Assembly (NCBI RefSeq): GCF_007859765.1
Contig: NZ_SIHJ01000001.1
Span: 62,001 to 126,000 of the forward strand
DNA from: Posidoniimonas corsicana
GTDB taxonomy: Bacteria; Planctomycetota; Planctomycetia; Pirellulales; Lacipirellulaceae
Direction: 5' to 3'
Length of the DNA: 64,000 nucleotides
Every line of letters starts with the position of its first letter. Positions within the stretch are counted from its first letter, which is position 1. The notes under the pieces are model-generated. The model was not told the origin of the DNA. It saw nothing but the letters and a program-made list of their open reading frames with translations, and ran no database searches. Below, piece after piece: positions 4,338 to 63,736 of the stretch. The position numbers were made by a program, and so were the translations under genes.

Positions 4338-4415
<78 letters not shown>

Positions 4416-4422
4416 CTAAACC

Positions 4423-4491: not shown

Positions 4492-4524
4492 TCTTCGCGA
4501 GTGCAGCACGGAGATCACCCTCTC

Positions 4525-5691
4525 ATGCCAGCCCGAAGGATCCCCTCGTACCGCCGCCAGAAGTCCCGCAACCTGGCGGTCGTTCGGATTGACGGCCGAG
4601 ATGTCTACCTCGGCCCCTACGACTCGCCCGAGTCGCACGCGAAGTACGACCGGCTGATTGCCGACTGGCTCCGCCGGCAGCAGGTCACGCTCAACGACGT
4701 GGTCAATCTGACCGCGGCGGAGCTGATGGCCGCCTACCTAACGCACGCCCGTGAGTATTACGTCAAGAACGGCGAGCTGACTCGAGAGTTCGGCTGCATC
4801 ACCGAGGCGTTACGCGAGGTCCGCCCACTCCACGGGGAGACGCTGGTCGCCGACTTTGGCCCCAAGGCGCTGAAAGCCGTCCGCGAGCGAATGATCGAGG
4901 TGGGCTGGTCCCGCCGGTACATCAACAAGCAAGTCGGTCGCGTGCTGCGGATGTTCAAGTGGGGCGTGGCCGAAGAACTTGTGCCACCGGCCGTACACCT
5001 GGCACTCGCGACGGTACCGGGGCTTCGGAAAGGGAGGACCGCCGCCCCCGATCTGGCCCCCGTCCAGCCCGTGGCCGATGAGCTGATCGAGAAGACGCTA
5101 AAGCATCTGCCGCCAATGATCGCCGACATGGTGCGGCTGCAGCGGCTCAGCGGCGCCAGACCGGGCGAGATTGTCGGGCTTCGCCCTATCGACATCGACC
5201 AGTCAACTGCGGTCTGGGCGTACCGGCCAGATTCGCACAAGACCGAGCACCACGAACGCAGCCGCGTGGTGTTCTTTGGACCAAAATCGCAGCAGGTGCT
5301 GAAGCCCTACCTGGATCGCCCCCTTTCAGCCTGCTGCTTCTCACCCGCCGAATCGGAGGCCCAGAGACGACTGGAGCGGCACCTGGCCCGAGTAACACCC
5401 ATTAAGCAGGGCAACAAGCCGGGCTCGCGTCCAAGATCGTCCAAACGGGTCCCGAAAGACGCCTACACGACCGACAGCTACCGGCGAGCGATTCACCGGG
5501 CCTGCGAGAAGCACGGCCTGCTCAAATGGTCGCCCAACCGGATCCGACATACGGCGGCCACCGAGATTCGAAAGCGATACGGGCTGGAGGCGGCGCAGAC
5601 TGTGCTGGGTCACAGCACGGCGGACGTGACGCAGATCTACGCAGAACGAGACATGGCGTTGGCTTCGAGTATTGCCGCAGAGCTGGGTTAG
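4525..5691 (+). CDS. int: Tyrosine recombinase/integrase of element 1
   Basis: The protein has 388 residues from ATG 4525 (an upstream in-frame GTG at 4501 is less likely because GGAG at 4509 fits the ATG). The N-terminus has an AP2-like arm-binding segment (NLAVVRIDGRDVYLGPYDS), then a core-binding domain and a C-terminal catalytic domain. Catalytic boxes visible are Arg in LSGARPGEIVGLR, box II as SPNRIRHTAATEIRK (Asn where many family members have His, then Arg), LGHS, and the nucleophile Tyr in ADVTQIYAERD. It is clearly homologous to the integrase at 57755, which has the same boxes. Position beside attL supports its role in integration and excision at tRNA-fMet. Confidence 0.95.
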   Translation: MPARRIPSYRRQKSRNLAVVRIDGRDVYLGPYDSPESHAKYDRLIADWLRRQQVTLNDVVNLTAAELMAAYLTHAREYYVKNGELTREFGCITEALREVRPLHGETLVADFGPKALKAVRERMIEVGWSRRYINKQVGRVLRMFKWGVAEELVPPAVHLALATVPGLRKGRTAAPDLAPVQPVADELIEKTLKHLPPMIADMVRLQRLSGARPGEIVGLRPIDIDQSTAVWAYRPDSHKTEHHERSRVVFFGPKSQQVLKPYLDRPLSACCFSPAESEAQRRLERHLARVTPIKQGNKPGSRPRSSKRVPKDAYTTDSYRRAIHRACEKHGLLKWSPNRIRHTAATEIRKRYGLEAAQTVLGHSTADVTQIYAERDMALASSIAAELG

Positions 5692-15646: not shown

Positions 15647-16066
15647 TGGGCAGCTATGACGAGAGAGCGAAGCGGTAGCGTTTATCGCATCGTGTCGCCC
15701 GTCCCGCAATAAAGGCTCAAAGATCGCGTAGACGTCATGACCATGAAATTATGACCTATACTTTCCGTAAGCCCCCACGCCAACCCCGATCCAAGCTGAC
15801 CAAGTGGCTCAAGGAAGCCGAACCGCTGCCGCGTCCATCGAGGATGGAAACCCAACCGGGGTAGCAGTTAAAGCGCCAGTTGACGTTAGTTTTCGGCTAC
15901 GGAAGTGGCGTTCTGCAGCACAGTCCTGGCCGTCAATGTGCTGCAAGAATGTGAATCGGTTTTGATAGACTGCTGCATTCTACGCAAGTGAGTCCTGCGT
16001 CGGTCCGACACGCCTGAGGCTGTTGGGAGTATTGGGCGAGTAGTCGGCTCTTTCAGAATCGCTCGC
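15647..16066. other. Intergenic region, no gene seen
   Basis: About 420 bp between the defence operon and the vapC remnant. No credible frame on either strand. It should contain the ABC-3C promoter, but no convincing -35/-10 pair was identified. Confidence 0.5.
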
Positions 16067-17154: not shown

Positions 17155-17586
17155 TCAGGCCGGCTCGGATGGAAAGCGGATGTCAGTGGGCAGCGTCCTG
17201 GGCTGAATCTCGATGCGGGTCACAACGGGCTGACCCTCGGAGGCGGCTATGGCTTCCTGCTTCGCAGCCTCCCAGACGTAGACGATGCGGTGGCGTTTGA
17301 GGCCGCGGTAGAGCCCCTCCAGTCCGTGGCCTCGAATGACCACCTTGTGGTCGCTGAAGGTCAGCTCCAAACCCTCCGAGCGATTCCACGCAACGTCGTA
17401 GAGGTGGTTGTAGGAAATCGCCCGCTGGTCGCCGTTGGCCAGCCAGAAGTCGATCAAGGCGTTGGTTGGGCGAACCTGATCGTCGATGGCGAAGGCCTTG
17501 TATTCTTCTGGACGGGCGTCAAGGTCGGCCTCACCGCCGCCGCCAAAGTGGCTGAAGGTGTGTCTGTCTGAGATCGTGCTGGACAT
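17155..17586 (-). CDS. Unknown protein in the transfer operon
   Basis: 143 residues from ATG 17586, two bases after the relaxase stop, so it is certainly in the relaxase operon. Visible segments: SHFGGGGEADLDARPEEYKAF, a mixed alpha/beta middle (LIDFWLANGDQRAISYNHLY, VVIRGHGLEGLYRGLKRHRI), and a Pro/Arg-rich end. There is no membrane segment or known motif. By position it is likely an accessory to DNA processing or transfer. I do not recognise a family. Confidence 0.8.
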   Translation of the reverse strand: MSSTISDRHTFSHFGGGGEADLDARPEEYKAFAIDDQVRPTNALIDFWLANGDQRAISYNHLYDVAWNRSEGLELTFSDHKVVIRGHGLEGLYRGLKRHRIVYVWEAAKQEAIAASEGQPVVTRIEIQPRTLPTDIRFPSEPA

Positions 17587-17588
17587 GG

Positions 17589-20333
17589 TTACCGTTCCGG
17601 TTGAGGTTGCATTTCATGACGCGGCAACCAGTCGTGGAAACGCTGGAGCTGCTTGGTGGCCAGTTGCTGGGCAACGGACTTGACTCGATTGAACGCCTGG
17701 AGCAAGCGGGTGGGCGTGCGCCCACCGAGTTGAGTGGGCTGGACGGACGTTGCGAGCTGCTTGTGACGAAACCGGCTGATGGCTCGCTCAAGCCCGTCGG
17801 TCGAATCCGTATAGATATCGCACCTCGTGCGGGCGCGCGAGGCACTGACATACATCTGCTCAGGCGAGCTCGCCGGAAAACTCAAACTCGACGCGGCGAC
17901 AAACGCCCTGTGGACCGTGGTGCCTTGACTAACGTGGCTCGTTACCGCGATTCCTTGGTCAAAGAACCTCCAGTCGGGCGCCAGCTTCTCGCCGTTGTCT
18001 AACCGGATGGCGCCGTTGCTAATCGATCGGATGGTGTGCAGGCTGCCGTTGGTCAGCTTCTTCTGACCGGGCTCCTGACGCCGTCCCCGGGTGAGCCGGA
18101 TGACGTCGCCTACGGCGTAGTCGGCGACTTCGGGGCGGAACACAGCAAAGGCGCCCGCGGATTCGAGCGGCACCGTCCTCCCCTCTTCGGTGAAAACTTT
18201 GCCGTTGGTGACTCGGGCAACCTGGAGCTGATCGCCCGATTGAATTCCGCCGCGTCCCTTGGCGTGGAAGGCCACCAGATCCCCCGCCTGGTAGTTAAGC
18301 GGGTCCTGTCGCTGTGCCTTCGAGAGTTGCTTCGGGACGTAGCTGGTGAGCGCGTGCTCCTCGTCGCCGATCAGCTTGCGAGACTTAAGTTCGTCTCGAA
18401 TGGAGTCTATCACCTGCCGTCGCTCGGCATGGGTCGGCGCGATAACGAGGAGCTTCTGGTCGGGATGCTTCTCCCTGGCGTCCGCAAAGTCGCGTGCCAA
18501 GATAGCGTCGCGCTCTTCATCCGCGATTTCATGAACGTAGTCGAGAGCTTGCAGCCGCTCGAATCCCTCGCTGATATCGCCTCGGCTGAGCGCCTCGACG
18601 GCATCTCTGTAGCTCCCCTCCTGACGCCGTATGGTCGAGAGCGACTCCGGTTCAATCCCCGCTTGCTCTTCCAGCATCTTGAGCGGGTGGCCGCGCTCGA
18701 TCGGCAGGTGCTGTCGGGTATCGCCAACGGCGATAATTCTTGCGTTCTGCTGGTCGGCTACGCGGACGAGTGCTCGGAATGTTGGCGATCCGATCAGGCC
18801 CGCTTCGTCGACGATAAGAACGCCGCCGTTGACAGCCGACTGGGCCTTCTCATCCAACAGAAACGACTGCACCGTCTTGGCGTCGAACCCGTCTTCCCTG
18901 AGGTTGTCGACGGCCTTGTTGGTCGGCGCCATGATGGCGGTCGGCTTGCTGGCGTCATTGATCTGGGGAACAAGGTGCTGGAGCATATACGACTTGCCGA
19001 CGCCGGCAACGCCGTGGACAACCTGGAGACGGTCGGTGGAGGTGAGCAGGCCGGCGACCACACGCCGCTGCTCCTCGCTCAGGTCGCTTGCCTCTGCCTC
19101 GTAGGCTGCATTGAGCGGCTTAACCTGCCCCCGACCCTGCTTGGCGAAATTCAGAATCGCTAGCTCTTCTTGCTGCAGCTCCTTCGTTGTGAGCACAGCG
19201 GCTTCCTCCTTGCCTTGCCGAATCACACGTCGCCGGGCGACTTCGGCTCTAATTTCTGCCACGCTGTTGTCGCCGATGCCGTGCTTCAAGGCGTCGCTGA
19301 GAACGTTCCGTTCACGCAGCACCGCCTCGTGCTCAAATCCGTGCTCCAGGGCGAAGTCGACCGCCGCTTGAGCGGTGATGGCATTATTCTTGGTCGGTGT
19401 GGGCTCGAGCTTGCTGCGGCCGACCTGGTCAAGCTGCCGGCTCTCTGCCGGGGTGAGCTGCAGCTGCCAATGCTCTTGCAGCTCGTCCAGCGAGAACGAC
19501 TTGCCCTTGCGGTCGCGGGACAGGGCCCCGATCATGCCCTTGGCGTCCGCGAGCGAGACGCCGTGCTTGGCGGCGAGCCGCTCGGCGTAGCCTTCGTCGA
19601 TGCGCTCGTTGATCTGCGCGGTGCGTTTGCTGAACTTGTCGATCAAGCCACGCGAGACACCGGCGATCTCAAAGCCGTTGGCAGTCCGCTCGACCGCGTA
19701 GCCCAGGTCTTGCAGGTTGGTCGCTAAGCGGCTCTGGAACACCGACTCGTAGTACCGCTGGGCGTCTCGGAACAGGTTGCTGATATCGGCGGCAAGCCAG
19801 CGGTCCGACTTTTCGTCGAACGTGTGGTTGGATACGAAGGCGTGCGAATGCAGCTGACAGTCAGGAACGTGGCCCTTCACGCCCCTGGCGTCGACATGAA
19901 CCCACACCCCGGCAATGAAATTCCTCGTCTTCTCGTGCCGCTGCTCGCCTCCGGCAATGTTTACCCGTCGCATGACATCCTGCTCCATCTCGAGCAGCGT
20001 ATCGTTCGTGGCGCCACGCAGCGCGTCGACGACGGCCCGATCGTTGTTCAGCCCAAAGACGATCGACACCGACTTGGGCGCCGAGAACGTGATGTCCCAG
20101 CCGTTGCGACGGTTGTCACGGGTGCGTTGCGAGAGCCGCTCGCCTGTAGTTGGGTGATGGTTCTCCAGCAGCCGCATGAACTGCTTAGGGTCGATCGCCC
20201 CCTCCAGGCCAAGACGCCTGGCGCCGGCGCCAAGCCACTGCCCCTCGAACTCCGGGCCAGCGTCGTAGTAGTCCGCTAAGTAGTAGTTGTGCGTCTGCTT
20301 GGCGGACCCGCGATGGGTCGTGATTCTTGCCAT
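17589..20333 (-). CDS. MobF-family conjugative relaxase-helicase (TrwC/TraI-like)
   Basis: 914 residues. The N-terminal relaxase domain has tandem Tyr candidates (HNYYLADYY, residues 15-23), FSAPKSVSIVFG and the metal-binding QLHSHAFVSN (His near 162 and 164), all hallmarks of TrwC-type HUH relaxases. A superfamily-1 helicase domain follows: Walker A GVAGVGKS (441-448), GGVLIVDEAGLIG as Walker B, and a C-terminal UvrD-like motif (ITSHVSQGTTVHRAFV). It nicks oriT, stays linked to the 5' end and unwinds the strand for transfer. Size is typical for MobF. The oriT was not located; it is normally close to this gene. Confidence 0.95.
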   Translation of the reverse strand: MARITTHRGSAKQTHNYYLADYYDAGPEFEGQWLGAGARRLGLEGAIDPKQFMRLLENHHPTTGERLSQRTRDNRRNGWDITFSAPKSVSIVFGLNNDRAVVDALRGATNDTLLEMEQDVMRRVNIAGGEQRHEKTRNFIAGVWVHVDARGVKGHVPDCQLHSHAFVSNHTFDEKSDRWLAADISNLFRDAQRYYESVFQSRLATNLQDLGYAVERTANGFEIAGVSRGLIDKFSKRTAQINERIDEGYAERLAAKHGVSLADAKGMIGALSRDRKGKSFSLDELQEHWQLQLTPAESRQLDQVGRSKLEPTPTKNNAITAQAAVDFALEHGFEHEAVLRERNVLSDALKHGIGDNSVAEIRAEVARRRVIRQGKEEAAVLTTKELQQEELAILNFAKQGRGQVKPLNAAYEAEASDLSEEQRRVVAGLLTSTDRLQVVHGVAGVGKSYMLQHLVPQINDASKPTAIMAPTNKAVDNLREDGFDAKTVQSFLLDEKAQSAVNGGVLIVDEAGLIGSPTFRALVRVADQQNARIIAVGDTRQHLPIERGHPLKMLEEQAGIEPESLSTIRRQEGSYRDAVEALSRGDISEGFERLQALDYVHEIADEERDAILARDFADAREKHPDQKLLVIAPTHAERRQVIDSIRDELKSRKLIGDEEHALTSYVPKQLSKAQRQDPLNYQAGDLVAFHAKGRGGIQSGDQLQVARVTNGKVFTEEGRTVPLESAGAFAVFRPEVADYAVGDVIRLTRGRRQEPGQKKLTNGSLHTIRSISNGAIRLDNGEKLAPDWRFFDQGIAVTSHVSQGTTVHRAFVAASSLSFPASSPEQMYVSASRARTRCDIYTDSTDGLERAISRFRHKQLATSVQPTQLGGRTPTRLLQAFNRVKSVAQQLATKQLQRFHDWLPRHEMQPQPER

Positions 20334-20383
20334 TCGCTACCCTACCGCAGAAAGGTTAATACTTCGTTACCGTTGATAGCGGC

Positions 20384-20701
20384 TCAACGTTCGATCTCGG
20401 GTTCCATTTCCGGCTGCGCCATTTCCGCTGCCTGTTCGATCAGGTTGTCGAGAATCGATTCGGGCGGTGCGATCTCATGGGGTTCGGTTGCTGACATGGT
20501 TTGGAATTCTCGTGAGGTTTGGGGTTGAGGGCTGACGCCGGTTTGAATCGAGACCAACATCGGGGTAGCAGTGCCGAGCACACCCGGCTCTTCGACGGCG
20601 TTCCATAAACGACCGATCTCTTTGTGACCTTGCCTTAGCATGCCAGAGACGCTCCCCTGCCCCAGCTTGCGACGCGGCCCCGTCGGCTTACGGCGGCTCA
20701 T
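20384..20701 (-). CDS. Small unknown protein upstream of relaxase
   Basis: 105 residues starting at ATG 20699-20701, overlapping the preceding stop as ATGA, so it is co-translated. The N-terminus is basic (MSRRKPTGPRRKLGQGSVSG) and the C-terminus acidic (ESILDNLIEQAAEMAQPEMEPEI). It could be a DNA-binding relaxosome accessory protein by position and charge, but no recognised fold is visible. Confidence 0.75.
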   Translation of the reverse strand: MSRRKPTGPRRKLGQGSVSGMLRQGHKEIGRLWNAVEEPGVLGTATPMLVSIQTGVSPQPQTSREFQTMSATEPHEIAPPESILDNLIEQAAEMAQPEMEPEIER

Positions 20702-21318
20702 GGGTGCCCCTTTCGCAGTTGCTGCCGCCAATCACGTGCGCGTCCACGAGCGGCATTGCGACGCGATCGGTGCAAGGATTCACGAGCGAACAGCCAGCCG
20801 TGGCAGAAAACCAGCCAGGTGACAAGGCTGAAGAAGAAACCGCCTTGAATCGGTGAGTTGAACTGGTAGAAGAACCAACTCAACCCGCCGGCGACAGCGA
20901 GGTCGCCGATGCCCCCTGCAACCTGCGACGGAAACTTCGGGGAAAGAATGCTGAGCCCGAATTCGATCTCGCTGGCGGAGCGTCTAGGCGGCCGGAAGAG
21001 GTGAATGACAGTCGCCAGCGTCCAGATCGAAGCGAGCAATAGCAGCAAGTATTCGACTCGGATCGCATCGTGGACGCCGGTCAGTTCGTGTCGCCCCTGG
21101 TACACCGCCAGCGGCAGCGCTACGCCGACCAGCCGAGCTGCGTGCAGCGGCCGACTGCTAGTCGCCAGGCGTCGGCTCAGCAGCTGGACGCTCCCCGCGG
21201 CCGCGAAGCCGATCAGCAGCATGACGGCGATGGCGTTCTTGGCGGCATGGATATCCTCTTTCGCGAACTCTTCGGCAGTCTTAGTGGGCGGGGCCTTGTC
21301 GGGATTCAACTCGTCCAT
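20698..21318 (-). CDS. Polytopic membrane protein of the transfer operon
   Basis: 206 residues from ATG 21316-21318, five bases after the coupling ATPase stop. Hydrophobic segments at about 28-48 (AIAVMLLIGFAAAGSVQLL), 60-76, 88-108 (YLLLLLASIWTLATVIHLF), 145-160 and 166-185 (FFFSLVTWLVFCHGWLF) predict four or five membrane passes, with a basic C-terminus. The neighbouring coupling ATPase has no membrane domain of its own, so this protein may provide the missing anchor. That is inference; the family is not recognised. Confidence 0.8.
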   Translation of the reverse strand: MDELNPDKAPPTKTAEEFAKEDIHAAKNAIAVMLLIGFAAAGSVQLLSRRLATSSRPLHAARLVGVALPLAVYQGRHELTGVHDAIRVEYLLLLLASIWTLATVIHLFRPPRRSASEIEFGLSILSPKFPSQVAGGIGDLAVAGGLSWFFYQFNSPIQGGFFFSLVTWLVFCHGWLFARESLHRSRRNAARGRARDWRQQLRKGHP

Positions 21319-21323
21319 CGTGA

Positions 21324-22760
21324 TCACCTCTGCTCGAATGTATAAACGCGGAAGGGCGAACCGTTGCGGCCGAACGTGCGGCCCGCCTGGGTGTAGAAGC
21401 AGTCGACGAGTCGGCGGTTGGCCCCGCCGCCACGGCGAAGCGACAAGAACGCTTCGACGGGGCATCTTCTGACGCGAGACTCGCCAACGCTGTAGGTAAA
21501 GTGCGACCCGAAGATGATGTCCATCAGGTTCAGCTTCTCGATCTCTTCGGTCCGCTCGGAGACCGTGACGGTCTCTTCGATATGCTCCCCCCACGCCTCG
21601 GAGAAGTAAGCGGCCGTGTCTTTGCACGGCGTGGCCATCAAGAACTTCTGCGAGTAGTTCGCAAGTATGGCGTGGAGCCTCTCAGCAGCGTCGGCGCCGC
21701 CCCCCATCGCCGCGCGGAATTGGGCAAGCGATTGGCCGCTGGAAACAAATCCCAGCAAATGCGACCGCGCCAAACTTTGGACAAAAACTTCAAAGTCCGG
21801 GTCGGCGAGGATGGCCGGAAGCTCATCCCGCACGAGCAGCGTTAGGTTTGATGGATCAGTCTGCCTGAGCGCCGCCTCGCAGACAAGGATGTTCATCAGC
21901 GACGTGAACAGCAGGCCGCCCGTCTGGTGCGTTAGCAGCGGGAAGTCGAGTACTACGCAACTGCCCTTCAGGGCCATCCCGGGGGTGAAGCTGCTCGGAC
22001 CCGGCGTGTTGACGGTCTCGTAGAGCGGCGACCGCATGAACGGCGACAGGATCGCCATGACTTGGGTCAATGCGCTACCGCGCCCTTTGCTGCCGATAAG
22101 GATGAGCTCGTTGCAGATAAACGTGGCGGCGAGTTCGTACTGCCGGCGCTCGGCGTCACTCACAAGATTCATCTCGGCCTGCCGGAGCATCTTGAGGCAC
22201 ACAGATTTATTCCGAAACGCCTCGGAACTCAATTGCTCGAAGCTGCTCGGCGTCGATGCGCAAAAGCAGAACACATCAGCGAGGCAAACCTCCCTTCGTT
22301 TGGCAAGCCAGCAGATGGTGATGCTGTATTCCAGCAGACGCGAGAAGAGGTTCTGCCAGTAGGCCTCGCCGCGCTCACCATTGCTACGCGTCATGAGCTT
22401 GTTCAACCGCTCCAGCAGGATCGTCGCCGTGATTGGCGACCCGCCGGGCCGGTCGTTCAGTTCGTAAGACAGCACGTTGCAGGTGAACTGCCCGGGGACC
22501 AGATGCAGCAGGCGGCCCTCGGCGCTGGCGGCGCTGATAATCCGGATCGCAGCGTCCGCCTCGTCGTTCTTGACGCACGACCAAACGCAGCCAATCGGTC
22601 GCCCCTGGCACGTGCGGCGTAGGGCGTCGGTCAGAAGAACTTTCAGGAGGGAGCTTTTTCCCGAACCCGATCCGCCTACAGCTAGCGTGTGATCGCATAG
22701 GGATTTCGTCCCAAGATCGAGGTCATGAAAGATGTCACTCTGGCGTTTTCTAAAGAACAC
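21324..22760 (-). CDS. Coupling-type conjugative ATPase (VirD4/TraD-like), no membrane domain
   Basis: 478 residues. Start is GTG at 22760, chosen because AGGAGG lies 6 nt upstream. Walker A GGSGSGKS is at residues 29-36, and LTLLVRDELPAILADPDF is a Walker B-like strand. PIGCVWSCVKNDEADA and the later GFVSSGQSLAQFR segment fit type IV coupling or TraM/TraD-type ATPases that hand the relaxosome to the secretion channel. Typical VirD4 proteins are 600-700 residues with two N-terminal membrane helices; these are missing here, while a polytopic membrane protein is encoded directly downstream. It lies between parB and relaxase genes in one transcription unit. Confidence 0.85.
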   Translation of the reverse strand: MFFRKRQSDIFHDLDLGTKSLCDHTLAVGGSGSGKSSLLKVLLTDALRRTCQGRPIGCVWSCVKNDEADAAIRIISAASAEGRLLHLVPGQFTCNVLSYELNDRPGGSPITATILLERLNKLMTRSNGERGEAYWQNLFSRLLEYSITICWLAKRREVCLADVFCFCASTPSSFEQLSSEAFRNKSVCLKMLRQAEMNLVSDAERRQYELAATFICNELILIGSKGRGSALTQVMAILSPFMRSPLYETVNTPGPSSFTPGMALKGSCVVLDFPLLTHQTGGLLFTSLMNILVCEAALRQTDPSNLTLLVRDELPAILADPDFEVFVQSLARSHLLGFVSSGQSLAQFRAAMGGGADAAERLHAILANYSQKFLMATPCKDTAAYFSEAWGEHIEETVTVSERTEEIEKLNLMDIIFGSHFTYSVGESRVRRCPVEAFLSLRRGGGANRRLVDCFYTQAGRTFGRNGSPFRVYTFEQR

Positions 22761-22769
22761 GACACCCTC

Positions 22770-23582
22770 CTAGCTAGCTTGGGACTGCAGAAGTTTCGGA
22801 AGCAGCTCCAACGGATGACGCTGCTTGGCGTGAGAGACGAGGCGGCTCTTGAGCTTTCCCAGCACCTGGTGCAGGTCGTCGTACCCCGAGTCTGCAGGCA
22901 TTGTGAGCTGTAGCCGGACGCTATCAATCGTCAGTGCAAGCTTTAGCCGCTTAGGCGTTGCTCCAGACGGTCTCGTCGCGGCGAGAATATCATCGCGCCG
23001 CATGTCACCCGCGGCGTGGGCGGCCAACCACTCTACCTGCTGTTCGTGATCCACTGCCCGTTTAGCTACTTCGTACGCGATCGAGACCCCAATCTTGCGC
23101 TCGGCAACCATCGCCATCGCTCTTGGACCGAGCTTGTCGAGCACGGTTTGGATCTTACTGAAAGTCGAACGGCTCACGCCCGCCAGACGGGCCCCCTCCT
23201 CAAAGCGGCACTTGTGGTAGCTCGCCAGGGCATGCACCCGCTTCATCACGTCCGGCAGCGTTTCGTCTCGGCGCACGTGGTTCTCATGGAGCGACTTTGC
23301 CAATGCGTCTTCGCGGCTTGTGCCCGCGGGGAGAACGATCGCGTCGATCTCGGTCTCCCCGTTGCGCCGGCAGGCTTCAGTGCGGTGGTTTCCACTCACG
23401 ATTTCATAGCCGCCACCGCTCTCAATAACGAGGATCGGTTGCAGCAATCCGTGCTGGCGGATGCTTTCTTGCAGCCTCGCAATCGTTGGATCGTCAAGAG
23501 ATCGTGACAACGACATCGGCTGCAACAACTCTACTGCGACGCATCGGGGTTCGGCCGGTGCAGTTGCGTTTGGTCTAGGCAT
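22770..23582 (-). CDS. parB: ParB/Spo0J-like DNA-binding protein
   Basis: 270 residues. The N-terminal ParB/sulfiredoxin-type domain has IVSGNHRTEACRR (CTP/arginine patch, family GxxRxxA) at about 62-74 and LHENHVRRDETL. A helix-turn-helix KCRFEEGARLAGVSRSTFSKI follows near 125-145. It may act in partition or as a nucleoid-binding regulator of transfer genes. It is the first gene of the coupling ATPase/relaxase operon and is matched by a ParB at 60230 next to the coupling gene of element 2, so the pairing is conserved. No ParA lies beside it; the ParA at 27406 has its own small partner. Confidence 0.9.
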   Translation of the reverse strand: MPRPNATAPAEPRCVAVELLQPMSLSRSLDDPTIARLQESIRQHGLLQPILVIESGGGYEIVSGNHRTEACRRNGETEIDAIVLPAGTSREDALAKSLHENHVRRDETLPDVMKRVHALASYHKCRFEEGARLAGVSRSTFSKIQTVLDKLGPRAMAMVAERKIGVSIAYEVAKRAVDHEQQVEWLAAHAAGDMRRDDILAATRPSGATPKRLKLALTIDSVRLQLTMPADSGYDDLHQVLGKLKSRLVSHAKQRHPLELLPKLLQSQAS

Positions 23583-23716: not shown

Positions 23717-24445
23717 TCACTTTTTCAGGGGGTAGTTCATAACCCGCGGCCAGAAGTGGTGCTTGAGGGTACGCACGAGCTTGCGAGTGACGCGGGTCTT
23801 TACCGCTAGCCACACTCCCAGCCCACCCAAAGCAAAGGCGAAGAGCTTGGCCAGAGGGCTGACCACTGGCTTGGCGACGTGCTCAATCGTGCCGGTGATC
23901 AGCGGCTTCGCCACGTTCTCCCCCGCCGATTCAGCGAGGGCATCAGCGTGGACCGCCACGGCGCCTAGAGCGGTTGCGGCTGCTATTTTTCCACGGTGGC
24001 GCCAGGCGGCGTTGGCGGCATCGTCGATCGCCGAACTACCGGCACTGCGGGCGGCTCCCGCGGCCGCTTGCGGGGCCCTTGAAGCGAGCGCCTTGCTTCC
24101 GCCGTGGAACGCGGAGCTAACGGCCGTGTCGAGAGCGACAGAGCGGACAAGTCCGCTGCTCGTTCCCGCCACGCTCTTCGAGGCGGCGCCGGATTTGGTC
24201 GCTGCGGTCCCAGCGGCTTTGGCGGACTGCGTAGCGGCCGTTCCGACGGTCTTAGAAGCAGCAGAAGCCCCGCCCATCAGCTTTGCTCCGGCGTGGGCGA
24301 CGGCGTGCCCCGCTGCATGCATGATGTGAACAAGCGGGTGGGCCTGGGCCGCAGGACCCATCGCAAGGGAGAGAGCGGCGATCGCCATGCCCAACCGGCG
24401 GGGACCATCATTGTTCAAGAATAGCGGCAGGTAGTTTCGCAACAT
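23717..24445 (-). CDS. Ala-rich exported/membrane protein of transfer module
   Basis: 242 residues from ATG 24443-24445, with GGAG 8 nt upstream. Residues 15-40 form a signal sequence (LGMAIAALSLAMGPAAQAHP). A long Ala/Ser/Gly/Lys-rich amphipathic segment follows (ASKTVGTAATQSAKAAGTAA, etc.), then one membrane segment near 205-222 (LAKLFAFALGGLGVWLAV) and a basic tail. The same architecture occurs in the 217-residue protein at 63083 of element 2, also followed by a strong hairpin. The pair probably serves the same step in transfer, perhaps an envelope structure. The repeated amphipathic region resembles apolipoprotein-like helices. No named family recognised. Confidence 0.85.
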   Translation of the reverse strand: MLRNYLPLFLNNDGPRRLGMAIAALSLAMGPAAQAHPLVHIMHAAGHAVAHAGAKLMGGASAASKTVGTAATQSAKAAGTAATKSGAASKSVAGTSSGLVRSVALDTAVSSAFHGGSKALASRAPQAAAGAARSAGSSAIDDAANAAWRHRGKIAAATALGAVAVHADALAESAGENVAKPLITGTIEHVAKPVVSPLAKLFAFALGGLGVWLAVKTRVTRKLVRTLKHHFWPRVMNYPLKK

Positions 24446-24497
24446 GATCAACAGCTCCAATTGAGAGGAATGGGGCAGTTCGCGTACGCGCAGTGGC

Positions 24498-27124: not shown

Positions 27125-27409
27125 CTACTGTTGCTTTTTTAACCATGCCGTGATCGCGGCTTCCGCCATGTCCTGCATGGTGTGGGGATCAACACCGTTG
27201 AGCTGACGTTCCAACGATAGGCGCTTTAGGTCCGATGCGACCTGGGGGGCAAGCTTGATGGTGAGGGACTTCCGCCCAACCATCTGCGGCAGAACGGCCC
27301 TGGGGTCCGGAGCCTTGCCGGGCTCTTCGCCTTTGACAAACCGGCGGGCTTCTTCCGTGCGTGAAGGATCGGAGAGACTGACTCCGTCCTCTAGTGTTCT
27401 TCGCGTCAT
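27125..27409 (-). CDS. Small ParA-partner protein, RHH-like
   Basis: 94 residues. The C-terminal half (GRKSLTIKLAPQVASDLKRLSLERQLNG...MAEAAITAWLKKQQ) has the beta-helix-helix pattern of ribbon-helix-helix DNA-binding proteins; the N-terminal half is flexible. It starts within the stop of the parA gene (ATGA overlap), the standard arrangement for a small centromere-binding partner of a plasmid ParA. It probably binds a partition site near the operon, perhaps the repeat-rich segment at 28093-28480, and represses it. Confidence 0.8.
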   Translation of the reverse strand: MTRRTLEDGVSLSDPSRTEEARRFVKGEEPGKAPDPRAVLPQMVGRKSLTIKLAPQVASDLKRLSLERQLNGVDPHTMQDMAEAAITAWLKKQQ

Positions 27410-28092
27410 GACGCAGCCTCCTTCTTTGATCTGCTGGATTGCCTGTTCGTGGCAATCGCCTCCGGCATCAGTTCCTCAAAAATCTTCTGCACCTCGGCAG
27501 CGCCGATACGGCCAGCAGCCCCCATCTTCCACACGAACTTGCCCTGCCCGGGGGCGTCGGCGTAGACCTGCCGCAGGATCCACGGCTTGCTCACAATTGG
27601 TAGTCGCAATGCGGAGGCGGCTTTCTTCATCTCGGCCGCCAGTTTGAACCGCGGCTGGACCATATTCAGAATGATCGTCGCCGGGGGCGGTCCGCCGCGG
27701 ATCTTGCGGGCCTGCATGAGGATTTTGGTGGCTTCCGCCAGGGCGCGCACCTCAAGGAGCGAGGCTTTGCAGGGCAGGACGGCCAGGTCGGCTACCATCA
27801 ACAGTGCTCGGCTCGTCTCGCTGTTAGAGCCTGGACCGTCGGCGACGACGTAGTCGAACTCGCGGGCGTGCTCCTGGAGGCTATCGAGAATATCGTCGGC
27901 CTTCTCGAACTGCACGGTGTCGATATCGGGGTTGGCCTCCTCCAACCACTGCGAGCTGCTCTGCTGAGCGTCGCAGTCGGCCAACAGCACGCGGTGGCCC
28001 TGGTCGTGGAGCCAGCCGGCGAGGTGGACTGACACGGTGGACTTGCCCACTCCCCCTTTTCCATTGGCTACGGCGATAATCTGATTTCTCAT
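27406..28092 (-). CDS. parA: ParA-family partition ATPase
   Basis: 228 residues from ATG 28090-28092. The deviant Walker A GKGGVGKS is at residues 11-18, VLLADCDAQQSSSQW is the A' motif, and FDYVVADGPG the Walker B. Its short length and lack of an N-terminal regulatory domain place it with small plasmid ParA proteins. It drives segregation together with the overlapping small protein. With the adjacent initiator and iterons it forms a plasmid-type maintenance module inside an integrating element, suggesting an extrachromosomal phase after excision. Confidence 0.95.
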   Translation of the reverse strand: MRNQIIAVANGKGGVGKSTVSVHLAGWLHDQGHRVLLADCDAQQSSSQWLEEANPDIDTVQFEKADDILDSLQEHAREFDYVVADGPGSNSETSRALLMVADLAVLPCKASLLEVRALAEATKILMQARKIRGGPPPATIILNMVQPRFKLAAEMKKAASALRLPIVSKPWILRQVYADAPGQGKFVWKMGAAGRIGAAEVQKIFEELMPEAIATNRQSSRSKKEAAS

Positions 28093-28480
28093 AGGCGGAC
28101 TAATAGCGCACTTCGAACATGGTGGCAAGCAATAAATGTCCGGCTGCTGGGATGGCCCTCCGCTTGGCAGTCGAACTGGCCACTTGCTTCATTGGATGGC
28201 TTGCCTGTTGGCTGCCGAGGCGCATGGCGGTATGGATAGGCAGCGACCTCGCAATGCAACTTGCTGGCTGTATGGCCATCCTGCCGTCTGGATAGCAGGA
28301 TGTCATGACGGCTGGACGCCCAGATGGAATTGCGTGCCGCCCGACAGGCGGCCATCTCTTAAGCGTGCTTAAGGGAAACGCCTGTTCTTTCAATTCCCAT
28401 ATAGACACAATAGTCAGTCTACTGCCTTACTCTGTTGTTTCCCGGGGAAACAGACTCTGCATGATTGGATCAAGTCTTCA
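28093..28480. promoter_or_regulatory. Repeat-rich region upstream of parA, possible partition site
   Basis: No gene. It contains GGATGGC at 28150-28156 and 28194-28200 and its inverse GCCATCC at 28275-28281. An inverted repeat ATCCTGC/GCAGGAT (28278-28284, 28295-28301) follows. Position directly 5' of the parA operon makes it a candidate centromere and operator. The repeats are short, so this is tentative. Confidence 0.4.
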
Positions 28481-29530: not shown

Positions 29531-30598
29531 ATGACCGACACGCTGCTCGACCTCTCTTCAGACAAGCTCTCGCCGGGCGACCGCTCGCCGCTGCTGCCCG
29601 ACCGGCACCCGACGGCCGATTTCTTTGTGTGCGACGTGCTGGACGCCGCCCCCAAGGGGGACATGGCGTCGATGGAGCACCCGGTGTTCTCACTCTCGTC
29701 GAAGCCCGACCGCCGCGTCCGCCGCTACGAGCACGGTGACTGCTTTGTTGAGGTGAAGCCATCGTCCGACGGCCTGGCGACGGTGCACGACCGCGACATC
29801 CTGATCTACTGCATCAGCCAGCTGATGGCCGCCCGCAACGCGGGCCAACCGGTTTCGCAGGTCGTGCGGTTCAAGGCGTACGACCTCTTGACCGCCACCA
29901 ACCGGATGACGAACGGGCAGGGTTACGAGGCGTTGAAGGCGGCGCTCGAACGGCTCTCGGGCACCCGGATCAGCACCAACATCGTCACCGGCGGCCAGGA
30001 GATATTTGAGACGTTCGGGCTGATCGAGCGGGCCAAGATCGTCCGCCAGACGCGGGACGGAAGGATGCAGGAGATCGAGGTAAAGTTGGCGGAATGGGTG
30101 TTCGCCGCGATCCGGCACAACGAGGTGCTGACCCTCAACAAGGACTACTTTCGGCTCCGGAAGCCGTTGGAGCGTCGGCTCTATGAGTGCGGCCGCAAGT
30201 TTTGCGGCCGCCAGGCTTCGTGGAAGATTTCACTCGAACTGTTGCACAAGAAGTGCGGCTCGACCTCCACACTCAAGGAGTTTCGGCGGCTGATCACGCG
30301 GATCACGCGTGAGCACGCCGTCCACCAGCATATCCCCGACTACGACGTTTGGCTCGACGAGAACGACATGGTGAACTTCACCAACCGGCTCCGGCGTGAC
30401 GAGCGGGCGACCGAGTGGGACGGTCGGATCCTGCTGGCGGCGGAGACCTACGACGCGGCGCGGCGGTTGGCGCCGGGGTGGGACGTCTACATGATCGAGC
30501 AAGAGTGGCGGGCCTGGCTCACCGACCGCCCGCGGCGCCCCGACGCGGCGTTCCTCGGGTTCTGCCGCCGCTGGTTCGCCATCCGCGGAGCGGCATAG
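29531..30598 (+). CDS. repA: RepA-type plasmid replication initiator
   Basis: 355 residues from ATG 29531, directly after the iterons; no strong ribosome site. Segments RDILIYCISQLMAARNAGQPVSQ, VRFKAYDLLTATNR, GYEALKAALERLSGTRISTNI, EVLTLNKDYFRLRKPLERRLYECGRKFCG (split here only by my selection) and GSTSTLKEFRRLI match the replication initiator protein A family with two winged-helix domains. The product should bind the iterons and recruit host replication proteins. In an integrating element this predicts autonomous replication when excised, or lagging replication during transfer. Confidence 0.9.
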   Translation: MTDTLLDLSSDKLSPGDRSPLLPDRHPTADFFVCDVLDAAPKGDMASMEHPVFSLSSKPDRRVRRYEHGDCFVEVKPSSDGLATVHDRDILIYCISQLMAARNAGQPVSQVVRFKAYDLLTATNRMTNGQGYEALKAALERLSGTRISTNIVTGGQEIFETFGLIERAKIVRQTRDGRMQEIEVKLAEWVFAAIRHNEVLTLNKDYFRLRKPLERRLYECGRKFCGRQASWKISLELLHKKCGSTSTLKEFRRLITRITREHAVHQHIPDYDVWLDENDMVNFTNRLRRDERATEWDGRILLAAETYDAARRLAPGWDVYMIEQEWRAWLTDRPRRPDAAFLGFCRRWFAIRGAA

Positions 30599-33856: not shown

Positions 33857-33955
33857 CGTCAATACTCCATGTGATTGAAACACTGCAAGAAAAACCCCTT
33901 GCAAAAAAGCAACTGCTTTTGGGCAAGGGGGACGAAGGCCGAAAGTGCGGGGGGA

Positions 33956-57577: not shown

Positions 57578-57623
57578 CTCATAACCTCGAGGTCGTCGGT
57601 TCGAATCCGGCCCCCGCCACTTT
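57578..57623 (+). repeat. Attachment core, element 1/element 2 junction
   Basis: Identical over 46 bp to 4370-4415 but without the 5' half of the tRNA; upstream sequence is unrelated to a tRNA. It marks the right end of element 1 and, because another integrase gene follows, probably the left end of element 2. Confidence 0.92.
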
Positions 57624-57688
57624 TTCTAACTACCGCCGGAACCTAGACTTAGGTTACCTGTCGACGGTCGGCAGTGCGGCTCATTACT

Positions 57689-57754: not shown

Positions 57755-58858
57755 ATGTCGAGTTCTCAACGTCGCCGGCGTGTCCCCAAGTACTGCCGCC
57801 ACAAGGCCCGCGGTCTGGCCCGAGTGACGATCGACGGCAAGGACCACTACCTGGGGCCCTACGGCTCCTCGGAGAGCAAAGAGCGGTACCGTCAGATCGT
57901 CGGCGAGTGGCTCGACCAACAGCAGGCCGACTCGCTGCACGAGCAGACCGACGTGCGGGTCTGCGAGCTGGCCGTTGCGTACCTCCGTCACTGCATGGAG
58001 TACTACCGCAAGGACGGCGTTGTCACCCGAGAGTACGGGTGCATCACCGACGCCCTCAAACACGTCCGCCAACACTACGATCTGGAACGAATCGATCGGT
58101 TTGGTCCGAAGGCCCTCAAGACCGTCCGCGAGTCGATGATCGAAGCGGGGTGGTCGCGGAAATACGTCAACAAGCAGATCGGCCGCGTCGTCCGGATGTT
58201 CAAATGGGGAGTCGCCGAGCAGCTGGTCCGACCCACCATCTGGCAAGCCCTGCAGGCGGTCGGCGGCCTCAAACGGGGTCGCACGGACGCGCCTGAGTAC
58301 GCCCCGGTGAAACCGGTGAGCGATGAGGTCGTCGAGAAGACACTGCCGCACTTGTCGTCGATCGTCGCCGACATGGTTCAACTGCAACGACTCGTCGGCT
58401 GCCGCCCAAGCGAGATCTGCAGCCTTAGGCCAGTCGACATCGACCGCTCAGCAGACGTTTGGCGGTATCAGGTAGTTGGACACAAGACCGAGCACTACGG
58501 CAAGTCTCGCGTGATCTGGTTCGGACCCAAGGCCCAGGCAATCCTCTCCAAGTACTTGCTGCGAGACCCGGAAGCGTTTTGCTTCAATCCGAGTGAGTTG
58601 CCGAATCCTCGCCGCACTGCAGGCGATCGCTACACGAAGGACTCGTATGGGCGCGCCGTGCGTCGTGCCGCAAAGAAGGCCGAGGTCGAGACTTGGTCGC
58701 CAAATCGACTCCGGCATTCGGCCGCGACCGTGATACGCAAGGAATTCGGGCTAGAGGCCGCTCAGACTGTTCTGGGGCACGCGTCGGCTGACGTCACCCA
58801 AGTCTACGCAGAGAGGGACCAGCAACTGGCCGCCAGGGTCGCGAGAGAACTAGGTTGA
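57755..58858 (+). CDS. int: Tyrosine recombinase/integrase of element 2
   Basis: 367 residues from ATG 57755 with AAGGAG upstream. Homologous along its length to the integrase at 4525: GLARVTIDGKDHYLGPYGSS (arm-binding), YINKQ-type core region (RKYVNKQIGRVVRMFKWGVA), LVGCRPSEICSLRPVDID with catalytic Arg, SPNRLRHSAATVIRK, LGHASADVTQVYAERD with Tyr. Its 3' end overlaps the convergent DUF1580 gene by 9 bp. It should recombine the same tRNA-fMet core. Confidence 0.95.
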   Translation: MSSSQRRRRVPKYCRHKARGLARVTIDGKDHYLGPYGSSESKERYRQIVGEWLDQQQADSLHEQTDVRVCELAVAYLRHCMEYYRKDGVVTREYGCITDALKHVRQHYDLERIDRFGPKALKTVRESMIEAGWSRKYVNKQIGRVVRMFKWGVAEQLVRPTIWQALQAVGGLKRGRTDAPEYAPVKPVSDEVVEKTLPHLSSIVADMVQLQRLVGCRPSEICSLRPVDIDRSADVWRYQVVGHKTEHYGKSRVIWFGPKAQAILSKYLLRDPEAFCFNPSELPNPRRTAGDRYTKDSYGRAVRRAAKKAEVETWSPNRLRHSAATVIRKEFGLEAAQTVLGHASADVTQVYAERDQQLAARVARELG

Positions 58859-59884: not shown

Positions 59885-60187
59885 CTACATCTGCATCTCG
59901 AGGTTCTGGTTGATATTCGGCTCGACCTCGTGCCGATCCTGGTAGACTTCCTGCGGCAGCGCGTTGCCAGCGAGACCGATTTCCTCGACCGGTTGAACGC
60001 TCTCCGCTGTGGCGGGCAGAATCTGGGTAAGCTCCTTGAAGCCGGCGCGGAACATTGCTTCGGCGTGGGTGCCGCCGATCTTGGGTGAATCGCCGCCCGG
60101 GCTAAACACGCTGCCGATGGCGTTCCCCGCGAAGCCGATAACGCTGCCAACGACGCCCTTCATAAAGTCCAAGACTTGCTTCATCAT
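59885..60187 (-). CDS. Small unknown protein of element 2
   Basis: 100 residues from ATG 60185-60187 with GAGGTGA upstream. The N-terminus has a hydrophobic helix (VVGSVIGFAGNAIGSVF); the rest is acidic (ATAESVQPVEEIGLAGNALP, VEPNINQNLEMQM). It sits between ParB and the 59236 gene in the same direction. Possible membrane-associated transfer accessory; family not recognised. Confidence 0.75.
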   Translation of the reverse strand: MMKQVLDFMKGVVGSVIGFAGNAIGSVFSPGGDSPKIGGTHAEAMFRAGFKELTQILPATAESVQPVEEIGLAGNALPQEVYQDRHEVEPNINQNLEMQM

Positions 60188-60229: not shown

Positions 60230-61036
60230 CTACGATGCCGCTGCAACGTTCCGATGCTTGTCGCGCAGCACCCGCTTCAGCGTCTTGACGTCGATCCCAT
60301 CGCGGGAGGCTCTCTGGCCTGCCTGGGCGAGCTCACGGCCGATCCGGACTAGCGATTCCTGGTCGATCGGCTCGTCGGACGTGACGGCAACGTCCGCCGA
60401 CTTCAAACGGAGCACCGCGCGGTGGTGCGACTTGCCCTTGGGCCGGGCTGCCTGGGCCACGGCATTGGCGTCGTCCCGCTTCAATCGCCCAGCAGCGGCC
60501 TGCTTCAGCAGTTCACTCCGTTTGTCAGCATCCTCCACGCGGCTGATCGCATAGGCGGTGCTCTCTGCCAGCTCCCCAGCATTGAGTCGCGTTTGTGCCT
60601 CCTCGGGCAGTTCGAGGTACGACAGAGCCTGTGTCACCGAACCTTTGCTGACATGCAGCCGCTTTGCGATCTCGGTGTTTGACCAGCCATACTGGTCCTT
60701 CAGGTTCTTGTAGGCGACCGCCTTCTCCATCGGGGTCAGGTCTTTCCTCAGCGAATTGACGACCAGCTGCGTAACCGCGAGCGTTTCTGAGTCGGGCTCC
60801 TCATCGTGGACGATCGCGAGCACCGTCTCCTGCTTCTTCAACCTGCGCGCCCGCAGCCGGCGACACCCGTCGATGAGCCGGAATCGACTCTCCCGGCGGA
60901 AGACGATAATCGGCTGCTGCTCGCCGTCGTCGATCTGGCTCTGCCCAAGCTGCTCAATGGCTTCCTCGTCGAAGTGCTTGCGGGGCTGGTTGGGGTCCTC
61001 GTCGACCAGGTCGACGGGAATATTGGCGACTTTCAT
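60230..61036 (-). CDS. parB: ParB-family protein of element 2
   Basis: 268 residues. VDEDPNQPRKHFDEEAIEQL and FRLIDGCRRLRARRLKKQET are the N-terminal ParB domain (GxRRxRA-type box). YGWSNTEIAKRLHVSKGSVT with QALSYLELPEE is the helix-turn-helix. The family is the same as the ParB at 22770 but the sequence is diverged, and it too neighbours a coupling-protein gene. A 9-bp hairpin separates it from the coupling gene upstream. Confidence 0.92.
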   Translation of the reverse strand: MKVANIPVDLVDEDPNQPRKHFDEEAIEQLGQSQIDDGEQQPIIVFRRESRFRLIDGCRRLRARRLKKQETVLAIVHDEEPDSETLAVTQLVVNSLRKDLTPMEKAVAYKNLKDQYGWSNTEIAKRLHVSKGSVTQALSYLELPEEAQTRLNAGELAESTAYAISRVEDADKRSELLKQAAAGRLKRDDANAVAQAARPKGKSHHRAVLRLKSADVAVTSDEPIDQESLVRIGRELAQAGQRASRDGIDVKTLKRVLRDKHRNVAAAS

Positions 61037-63082: not shown

Positions 63083-63736
63083 CTAGGCCTCCGACTTCCG
63101 CGCCGGCCGCAGCCGCACGCGGTAGTAGACGTAGCCCAAGCCGCCGCCGATCAGGCCGAGACGCAGCAGCAGGCCGGCGAAGCCCTGGGCGTGCTGCGCG
63201 ACGTGCGACCCCATCGGCGCCGCGATCGCCGTGGCCATCGGCCGGGCAATGTGCTCGCCGGCGACCTCCATCGCTTTCGCCGAGAGCCGCTCGGTGGCCG
63301 CGATGAATTCTTCCGGTGCAAGCACCACCGCGGTGGCTCCAGCGCCAACGGCGATGGAGCTCTTCCGCTTCCACAGCCACGCAACCGCGTCGTCACCCCG
63401 CTGGGCGATCGTTTTCAGCCACGCCTGCTTGTGGGGGCTCTTGGCGAGCCGACCGGCGATGTCCGACAGCTGCTGCGCGCCGCGTGACGACAGCTTCGTC
63501 ATCGCCTGGGCGCCCTGCACGCCGAGCTTGTCGAGCACCTTCCGCGACGCGATCGCGGCGCCCTTGGCCGCGGCCGCGCCGCCCCGGGCGATCCCCCGGC
63601 CGGCGGCCGAGCCGGTCTTGTGGGCCGCGGTGGCGACCCCCTTGCCGAGCGCGCTCAGCCAGCTTGCCTGGGCGGGTCGCGGCGCCACAACGGCCACGAT
63701 CGCCAAGGCTACAATGGGTAGTGTCGCGTTGGTCAT
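63083..63736 (-). CDS. Ala-rich exported/membrane protein of element 2
   Basis: 217 residues from ATG 63734-63736 with GGGAG upstream. Signal peptide (LPIVALAIVAVVAPRPAQAS), a long Ala/Gly/Lys amphipathic segment (HKTGSAAGRGIARGGAAAAK), a hydrophobic stretch near 130-146 (SIAVGAGATAVVLAPEEF) and a C-terminal membrane segment (LLLRLGLIGGGLGYVYYRVR). Same architecture and genomic position as the 242-residue protein of element 1 at 23717. Likely an envelope component of the transfer machinery. Confidence 0.82.
   Translation of the reverse strand: MTNATLPIVALAIVAVVAPRPAQASWLSALGKGVATAAHKTGSAAGRGIARGGAAAAKGAAIASRKVLDKLGVQGAQAMTKLSSRGAQQLSDIAGRLAKSPHKQAWLKTIAQRGDDAVAWLWKRKSSIAVGAGATAVVLAPEEFIAATERLSAKAMEVAGEHIARPMATAIAAPMGSHVAQHAQGFAGLLLRLGLIGGGLGYVYYRVRLRPARKSEA

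Follow-up and report, generated by a model that had tools for sequence, protein, structure and literature searches.

Coupling proteins divided between two genes are already known, as pIP501 TraJ/TraI and as the TraG-TraJ pairs, and DotL, a protein of 783 residues, is part of the Dot/Icm system. As outlined in the parts of three papers that deal with pIP501 (PMC7434980, PMC12857230, PMC13037476), TraJ is a coupling ATPase without a membrane domain, and the separate TraI, for which two membrane helices are predicted and whose 15-gene transfer operon includes the pore, is proposed as its anchor. In the TraG-TraJ pairs, according to the passages on them in PMC7434980, the coupling gene adjoins a gene for a protein that is some 200 residues long, has several membrane helices and is required by TraG. 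A mobilizable plasmid's own coupling protein working with a borrowed pore is described, in the relevant part of PMC7431656, for CloDF13 (MOBC1 family), whose MobB has, and needs, a membrane domain.

The locus reported here resembles pIP501 TraJ/TraI, as there described, in having a soluble coupling ATPase and an adjoining, separate candidate membrane anchor. It differs in that the partner has 206 residues and at least three hydrophobic segments, that a ParB-like protein belongs to the module and that a pore was not found, and the two partners are likened by description. With the TraG-TraJ pairs, as PMC7434980 presents them, it shares a coupling gene whose neighbour encodes a membrane protein of several segments, about 200 residues long; unlike TraG, with its roughly 700 residues and membrane helices of its own, the ATPase has 478 residues and no such helices, and it is likewise unlike the longer DotL. 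The resemblance to CloDF13, on the account in PMC7431656, is that of a mobilizable element with its own coupling protein, whereas here the ATPase lacks a membrane domain and the relaxase is of the MobF type.

Element 1 and its mobilization genes

The window, meaning the whole stretch of DNA that was analysed, is 64,000 nucleotides long. For the gene maps the longest ORF was simply taken; a plain hydropathy window (threshold 1.6), rather than a topology program, called the hydrophobic segments. Element 1 is best explained as a plasmid-like, putatively mobilizable element integrated in a tRNA-Met gene of a planctomycete genome. It is bounded by two copies of a 47-base direct repeat, with one mismatch between them, and no third copy was found in contig positions 42001-166000. 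The features, in window coordinates, are:

4338-4412, tRNA-Met, its 3' part being the left att core
4370..4416, + strand, left att core of element 1 (47-base direct repeat)
4501..5691, + strand, tyrosine integrase of element 1 (PF00589, 2.2e-11)
17155..17586, - strand, g17155, a conserved gene of small size just downstream of MobF
17589..20333, - strand, MobF relaxase-helicase, 914 aa (PF08751, TrwC domain, 8.2e-67; NF041492 MobF, 4.8e-54)
20384..20701, - strand, small protein of the module, 105 aa, same operon (profile match 1.2e-24, itself in the training set)
20698..21318, - strand, membrane partner protein, proposed anchor of the coupling ATPase, 206 aa
21324..22760, - strand, coupling-type ATPase without membrane domain, 478 aa, GTG start (PF12696 TraG-D_C, 5.5e-6, above cut-off)
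22770..23582, - strand, ParB-like protein, separated by 9 bases from the downstream ATPase gene (PF02195, 4.7e-11)
23717..24460, - strand, g237, envelope-protein candidate with a hydrophobic segment near its C-terminus
27406..28128, - strand, ParA-type ATPase of element 1 (PF13614, 2.5e-18; VirC1 PF07015, 1.7e-10)
29531..30598, + strand, plasmid replication initiator (RPA) of element 1 (PF10134, 9e-86)
57578..57624, + strand, att core separating element 1 from element 2 (47-base direct repeat)
57755..58858, + strand, tyrosine integrase of element 2 (PF00589, 4.8e-17)
59885..60187, - strand, element 2 copy of the small protein (profile 2e-16, outside training)
60230..61036, - strand, ParB of element 2 (PF17762, 7.3e-16; PF02195, 9e-15)
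61148..62980, - strand, one-piece coupling protein of element 2, 610 aa (PF02534, 1.5e-61)
63083..63736, - strand, g237 copy of element 2 (clusters with its element 1 counterpart in blastp; profile member)

The relaxase is a full MobF protein, as the earlier note had stated, since the TrwC domain is followed by a C-terminal helicase (AAA_30, PF13604, 2.3e-44) and the NF041492 match exceeds its cut-off. The family of g17155 also adjoins MobF in element 2, at three related loci (L035-L037) and at others. Prepilin-like genes were considered as a common MobF neighbour and dropped, a motif scan having found them at 2 of 26 MobF loci. The g237 family is common to elements 1 and 2, L035-L037, L099, L102 and the plasmid pSINAC03; it gave no Pfam or NCBIfam match and no convincing PDB match, and a search of solved structures with the profile of the SECR family likewise gave nothing convincing. 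The small gene at 20384-20701, absent from the earlier note, lies between the partner and MobF genes. In one relative the partner and this small protein seemed to be fused, but the reading frame crossed masked bases and the case was set aside.

The coupling ATPase and its proposed membrane partner

The ATPase had been described as a 478-residue protein without membrane helices, and this description holds. Its Walker A motif (GGSGSGKS) begins at residue 29, no hydrophobic segment was called in it at threshold 1.6, and there is no hidden N-terminal membrane domain because an in-frame TAG a few codons upstream closes the reading frame (open frame 481). G32, G34, K35 and D312-E313 are invariant in the family (n=17 sequences), which thus has the Walker A and B motifs of VirD4/TraG/TrwB-type coupling proteins; their N-terminal membrane domain is missing from the element 1 protein. 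Homology to coupling proteins over the cytosolic domain is indicated by PF12696 and by a profile-profile alignment of the ATPase family with four one-piece coupling proteins (hhalign, 99.0% probability, E 5e-18, 382 columns), in which residues 12-441 of the element 1 ATPase correspond to residues 125-529 of the element 2 coupling protein. The latter has hydrophobic segments at 17-35 and 566-584, and a lower threshold calls two at the N-terminus; as the alignment starts after that membrane domain, the domain is the N-terminal part left unmatched. Against the PDB, the best match of the family profile was DotL/IcmO (6sz9; 4.5e-11, positions 308-430).

Five bases (21319-21323) separate the ATPase gene from that of the partner, and the polytopic membrane protein expected there proved to have three hydrophobic segments. 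In a profile-profile comparison the partner showed no similarity to one-piece coupling proteins (0.1% probability), which argues that simple gene fission is not its origin, and a profile search of solved structures with the partner family returned nothing convincing. Structures predicted for the two proteins as single chains were of low confidence (mean pLDDT 42.4 for the ATPase, in whose model the all-alpha domain was looked for, and 53.4 for the partner).

Relatives of the ATPase were found at 28 places in the order, one of them at a contig end, and the partner profile detected its family next to the ATPase at 25 of the 27 assessable places. Fifteen of these 25 form the training set; among the other 12 assessable places 10 were positive, one being a near-copy of a training member. 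At E<=1e-4 the same profile found nothing at 20 other MobF loci (L085-L104), in element 2 or on the plasmids pK2D_1 (relaxase-bearing part), PALBO2, pSINAC03, pSM-4 and p4_MNP-M23. The ATPase occurs without the partner at L129 and L130, which belong to one genus (the L129 contig ends 530 bases past the ATPase), and on pK2D_1, and at L124 the partner is cut by the contig end. A ParB-profile gene adjoins the ATPase at most places of the family. Element 1, L035-L037 and L102 share the order ParB, coupling gene(s), MobF, g17155, with the coupling slot split in element 1 and L035-L037 and filled by a one-piece protein in L102. Distances among the ATPases correlate with those among the partners (rho 0.638, 14 loci, 0/2000 permutations), a co-divergence that shared inheritance alone could yield, and do not correlate with those among the small proteins (0.073, 10 loci, 642/2000 permutations).

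Because the ATPase matches the cytosolic coupling domain, because the partner adjoins it so regularly and because a one-piece protein occupies the same slot in L102, these sequence comparisons support the proposal that ATPase and partner would form a two-protein coupling complex. Of the split coupling protein suggested in the earlier note, this part stands, while a reading as gene fission from a single ancestor is not supported, the partner being dissimilar.

For the locus as a whole, we think it probable that the coupling protein consists of two gene products, a soluble homologue of the VirD4/TraG/DotL cytosolic domain and a polytopic partner that would dock it at the inner membrane, and that the same module includes, in putative roles, the ParB encoded at 22770-23582 and the small protein encoded at 20384-20701. 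MobF would nick and unwind the DNA, and the docked ATPase would take over the relaxase-DNA complex and presumably pump the DNA, so bringing about the putative transfer of element 1.

It is unlikely, in our judgement, that the ATPase instead docks directly on the pore and the partner serves entry exclusion, regulation or relaxosome assembly. Coupling proteins without a membrane domain are indeed known (PMC7434980, in its part on these proteins), and the dissimilarity of the partner to coupling proteins would fit. Moreover, at least five partner-accompanied ATPases (L044, L048, L049, L124, L128) themselves have a hydrophobic segment at the N-terminus, so the partner would be more than a missing anchor; these five look intermediate towards TraG-TraJ. 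Elsewhere in the order, TraG-type coupling proteins at other MobF loci have an N-terminal hydrophobic segment in 5/5 cases, and TrwB-type ATPases beside other MobF genes have one before the Walker A-pattern match in only 5/10 (the match at L090 and L100 probably falls outside the true Walker A, and at L094 the pattern matched nothing). The remaining five (L086, L088, L090, L093, L094) have no such segment before Walker A, or none whatever, and no partner of this family, and a soluble coupling ATPase can therefore do without it; at L086, L088 and L094 a different small protein with hydrophobic segments adjoins. On the other hand, the partner family is bound to this one ATPase family and absent beside the other coupling proteins examined, whereas a protein for exclusion or regulation would more probably occur with several of them, like the small protein: outside training, its profile finds copies beside one-piece coupling proteins in element 2 (2e-16), PALBO2 (8.3e-9) and pSINAC03 (7.6e-7). 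A pore for direct docking is also hard to reconcile with the VirB4 results given below. We consider it quite improbable that ParB, ATPase, membrane protein and small protein make up an FtsK-like maintenance or segregation motor that only sometimes lies beside a relaxase, even though ParB is a member of the module and many ATPase relatives, among them L039, L041-L049, L051 and L052, lie in fetched stretches that show no MobF, the relaxase type sought there; the module may therefore function without MobF. Four of these stretches (L041, L044, L045, L046) carry tyrosine recombinases. Yet family and profile matches point to coupling proteins, the FtsK_SpoIIIE match (0.0023) falling below cut-off, and what precedes MobF in the clade of element 1 and in L102 is this pair or an unmistakable coupling protein. 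Two of the three plasmid records matched by the ATPase, both alphaproteobacterial, have a soluble relative followed by a protein of 124-127 aa with one or two hydrophobic segments, and both encode a MobQ or MobA/MobL relaxase.

The mating pore

The absence of a pore is the more interesting half of the finding. No VirB-like gene had been noticed between the att cores, and Pfam profiles agreed, identifying no VirB component among the 39 scanned ORFs of element 1. The whole-genome six-frame search covered VirB4, VirB6, VirB10 and P-loop_TraG, with VirB8 and VirB9 outside this set; VirB4 (PF03135), VirB10 (PF03743) and VirB6 (PF04610) matched nothing at E<=1, and P-loop_TraG (PF19044) gave four weak matches below cut-off (best 12.9 bits, E 0.118). 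Element 1 thus combines a relaxase and a coupling protein with no mating-pair-formation gene found by these searches, the content of a mobilizable element with its own coupling protein rather than, VirB4 being missing, of a self-transmissible ICE with a VirB-type pore. The suggestion that element 2 might supply the pore gains no support and was rejected, as element 2 carries its own mobilization set (integrase, MobF relaxase, one-piece coupling protein) and the VirB4, VirB6 and VirB10 profiles are silent throughout the genome. Neither element 1 nor, within the reach of these searches, element 2 or the rest of the genome encodes the pore.

This is part of a wider pattern, in which MobF relaxases are common, many with adjoining coupling proteins, and the pore is not found in the same genomes. 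VirB4 was found in 0/67 MobF-bearing genomes (for the order sample, among the matches listed) from samples of 372 genomes of the phylum and 396 of the order, the MobF and VirB4 searches being taken as covering the same set in each; one of the 67, G473, lies below the curated MobF cut-off. We regard as rather doubtful the possibility that a divergent VirB-type pore in one of the two elements or in the chromosome escapes the profiles, which would fit whichever way the coupling protein is read. In both elements many genes belong to no family, the composition of the genome-wide set leaves room for it, as do the weak, non-specific P-loop_TraG matches, and pSINAC03, a related plasmid, is typed by MOB-suite as conjugative (MPF_T). 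The VirB4 profile nevertheless works in the Planctomycetota, since it found long frames (717-925 aa) in 6/372 genomes of the phylum sample, and the VirB6 and VirB10 profiles gave no signal either. In addition, frames of at least 450 aa with a strict Walker A pattern on pK2D_1, PALBO2 and pSINAC03 were relaxases, the pK2D_1 ATPase and a HerA-like protein, although the pattern is not exhaustive because one-piece coupling proteins escape it.

The MobF elements are served either by an unseen helper or by an unrecognised channel. As recognisable VirB4 is missing from all 67 sampled MobF genomes, with the same restriction on the order sample, we tentatively raise the possibility, which we do not favour, that MobF elements of the Planctomycetota move through a channel other than a VirB-type secretion system. 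The coupling protein, split or one-piece, might then feed DNA to a host-encoded envelope machine or to a minimal channel, which could include members of the SECR and g237 families, conserved secreted and membrane proteins with genes next to the coupling gene. DNA exchange in planctomycetes is directly testable here because the candidate genes are few. The soluble ATPase under its probable two-protein reading offers a motor naturally apart from the membrane part, so that the role of the membrane domain, previously studied mainly via deletion mutants, becomes testable. Four scans of viral contigs gave no confirmed relative of the ATPase, and a contig scan with the four-member alignment A2 yielded one locus, L105, which apparently lies on the same 12,369-base contig as G248:C119.

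Coupling ATPase and membrane partner

The genes concerned lie in element 1, between the att cores at 4370 and 57578, and in the adjoining element 2.

17155-17586 (-), gene g17155
17589-20333 (-), MobF relaxase
20384-20701 (-), small protein, 105 aa
20698-21318 (-), membrane partner, 206 aa
21324-22760 (-), coupling-type ATPase, 478 aa
22770-23582 (-), ParB-like protein
23717-24460 (-), g237, candidate envelope protein
61148-62980 (-), coupling protein of element 2

The earlier note, whose coordinates were all borne out on checking, had described the ATPase as lacking membrane helices of its own. This is indeed so: Walker A is at residue 29, there are zero hydrophobic segments, an in-frame TAG lies a few codons upstream, and AGGAGGG directly precedes the GTG start. 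The five-base spacing to a membrane-protein gene was likewise confirmed, with that gene downstream of the ATPase and its product containing three hydrophobic segments; a low-confidence structure model gives five longer helices, the last being the longest. The 20384-20701 gene, absent from the earlier note, overlaps the 3' end of the membrane-partner gene.

Two Pfam families match the ATPase over cut-off, TraG-D_C (5.5e-6) and, barely, TrwB_AAD_bind (2.2e-4), and a profile of 17 relatives searched against the PDB gave DotL/IcmO at 4.5e-11 and TrwB at just 0.2. The same profile matched one built from four one-piece coupling proteins, which combine ATPase and membrane domain (element 2, locus L102 and plasmids PALBO2 and pSINAC03), with 99.0% probability (E 5e-18), and ATPase residues 12-441 align to residues 125-529 of the element 2 protein. 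Judged from sequence, the part absent from the ATPase relative to these proteins is the N-terminal membrane part. The membrane-partner profile showed no relation to one-piece coupling proteins (0.1% probability) or to solved structures (best E 0.078).

Passages of PMC7434980 catalogue TraG-TraJ pairs and coupling proteins without a membrane domain, certain of them acting together with small membrane proteins, as in pIP501 TraJ/TraI; TraI is the proposed TraJ anchor in passages of PMC12857230 and PMC13037476. Because these arrangements are already described, the window's proposed split coupling protein is a variant of a known one.

Distribution of the module and its counterparts

Searching with the ATPase gave 28 matching places in 23 genomes of an order sample of 396, and a match solely in the window's own genome in a family sample of 43. 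All 28 places, window included, were fetched, and one stops at a contig edge, leaving 27. The membrane-partner profile matches 25 of these, in each case directly downstream of the ATPase; the profile had been built from 15 of the 25, and it matches 10 of the 12 assessable places outside its training set. The two places without a match belong to the same genus. ParB-profile genes are present at most ATPase places, as are small-protein matches, with none of the latter at L035, L038, L039 and L048 (at 1e-4). In the relaxase-bearing clade (the window and L035-L037) the order is g237, ParB, ATPase, partner, small protein, MobF and g17155, L035 being the exception for want of a small-protein match; L035-L037 also have, upstream of g237, a gene of the secreted-protein family SECR for which no counterpart was found in element 1. 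At L038 the orientation of MobF differs.

Several findings count against a simple split. Five partner-bearing ATPases carry their own N-terminal hydrophobic segment, a likeness to TraG-TraJ pairs; plasmid pK2D_1 carries both MobF and a related ATPase, yet no membrane partner of the window's type; and for many ATPase relatives MobF was not found within the fetched stretch. Compact elements at L044, L045 and L046 (also L043 and L047) carry ParB, the coupling-type ATPase, membrane partner and small protein, with no MobF in the fetched stretch, and Pfam identifies tyrosine recombinases at the first three. On the small alphaproteobacterial plasmids pSM-4 (L114) and p4_MNP-M23 (L115), the gene after a related soluble ATPase encodes a protein of 124-127 aa that contains one or two hydrophobic segments, and the relaxases are of MobQ or MobA/MobL type; Skermanella rosea gave a third match alongside them.

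The same operon slot can hold a one-piece protein. L102 has the gene order of the window clade with a one-piece coupling protein in place of ATPase and partner, and in element 2 most of these families recur in a different order, again with a one-piece protein. Among 20 further MobF loci (L085-L104), the coupling protein is TrwB-type in 10 and TraG-type in 5, with none found in 5; the membrane-partner profile matches 0 of the 20. An N-terminal hydrophobic segment is present in 5/5 TraG-type versus 5/10 TrwB-type proteins. At L086, L088 and L094 a TrwB-type ATPase beside MobF is free of hydrophobic segments ahead of Walker A, and next to it is a small protein of another kind that does contain them; these are possibly further, independent split coupling proteins. 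Since five TrwB-type ATPases lack the segment and three of them adjoin such a small protein, we infer that motor and membrane part may have become separated here on more than one occasion, the partners differing.

The small-protein profile matches, outside its training, beside the one-piece proteins of element 2, PALBO2 and pSINAC03, so the small protein accompanies coupling proteins more broadly; the window's membrane partner accompanies only this ATPase family. Prepilin-like proteins are annotated on pSINAC03 (L113) and p4_MNP-M23 (L115) and found by motif at L098 and L102, cases too few for a rule.

Proposed mode of transfer and the missing pore

Most likely, in element 1, MobF would nick oriT and unwind the strand, and the soluble ATPase, held at the membrane by its partner, would take in the relaxosome, which ParB and ParA may help to position; for plasmid R1, PMC4949242 reports that conjugation is enhanced by partition proteins. 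The g237 and SECR families recur with split and one-piece coupling proteins and can be named as envelope candidates, SECR in element 2 at E 0.021 only.

The earlier note had proposed element 2 as a possible source of the pore. VirB4, VirB10 and VirB6 were not found in the window's own genome at E<=1, and P-loop_TraG gave weak matches alone, all under cut-off, which makes element 2 an unlikely pore donor. This genome has three MobF relaxases, the third adjoining a TrwB-type coupling protein (L085, contig C1:2723252 region; PF10412 1.1e-41, directly after MobF). In the order sample, MobF occurs in 50/396 genomes, and 2 other genomes give a marginal match to VirB4 (20.7-20.8 bits); in a phylum sample of 372, MobF occurs in 19 genomes (18 over cut-off) and long VirB4 frames in 6, with no overlap. 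Pooled, VirB4 was found in 0 of 67 distinct MobF-bearing genomes. As VirB4 is so rare in these samples, the zero overlap is statistically unsurprising; what is notable is that MobF is common and the pore was not found. Searches of open-licence PMC papers listed no report on pore-less planctomycete MobF elements.

In contrast to this planctomycete pattern, 1749 plasmid records have a relaxase like the window's, and MOB-suite types 1564 of them as conjugative. Of the planctomycete plasmids, pK2D_1 is typed as mobilizable, PALBO2 as non-mobilizable and pSINAC03 as conjugative with MPF_T. This last label runs counter to a pore-less reading; the pSINAC03 annotation has no VirB4, and its frames of at least 600 aa are ParB, the coupling protein, a methylase and MobF.

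Layout and cargo of element 1

The window covers positions 62001-126000 of a 4.16-Mb contig in a 6.77-Mb genome. Element 1 is bordered by a 47-base repeat at 4370, within tRNA-Met, and a second copy with one mismatch at 57578, where element 2 starts; a third copy was not found with the contig searched to position 166000. Because it carries an integrase, an RPA-family replication initiator, ParA, the ParB-like protein and ArdC, element 1 reads, on gene content, as an integrated plasmid-like element.

6153-10453 (+), BlaI-type repressor, then a BlaR1/M56 peptidase protein of 1302 residues that also has a carboxypeptidase-regulatory-like domain
12165-15709 (-), AAA_23 ATPase close to a protein bearing the ABC-three-component domain CTD6 (3.5e-38), probably an anti-phage defence pair
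32954-33904 (-), ArdC-type anti-restriction protein, its cluster recurring in 8/26 MobF loci
39177-48063, probable surface-polysaccharide cargo: several glycosyltransferase-like genes together with UDP-galactopyranose mutase
49751-55219 (+), RHS repeat in a 1822-residue protein, adjoined by a Mutator-family transposase
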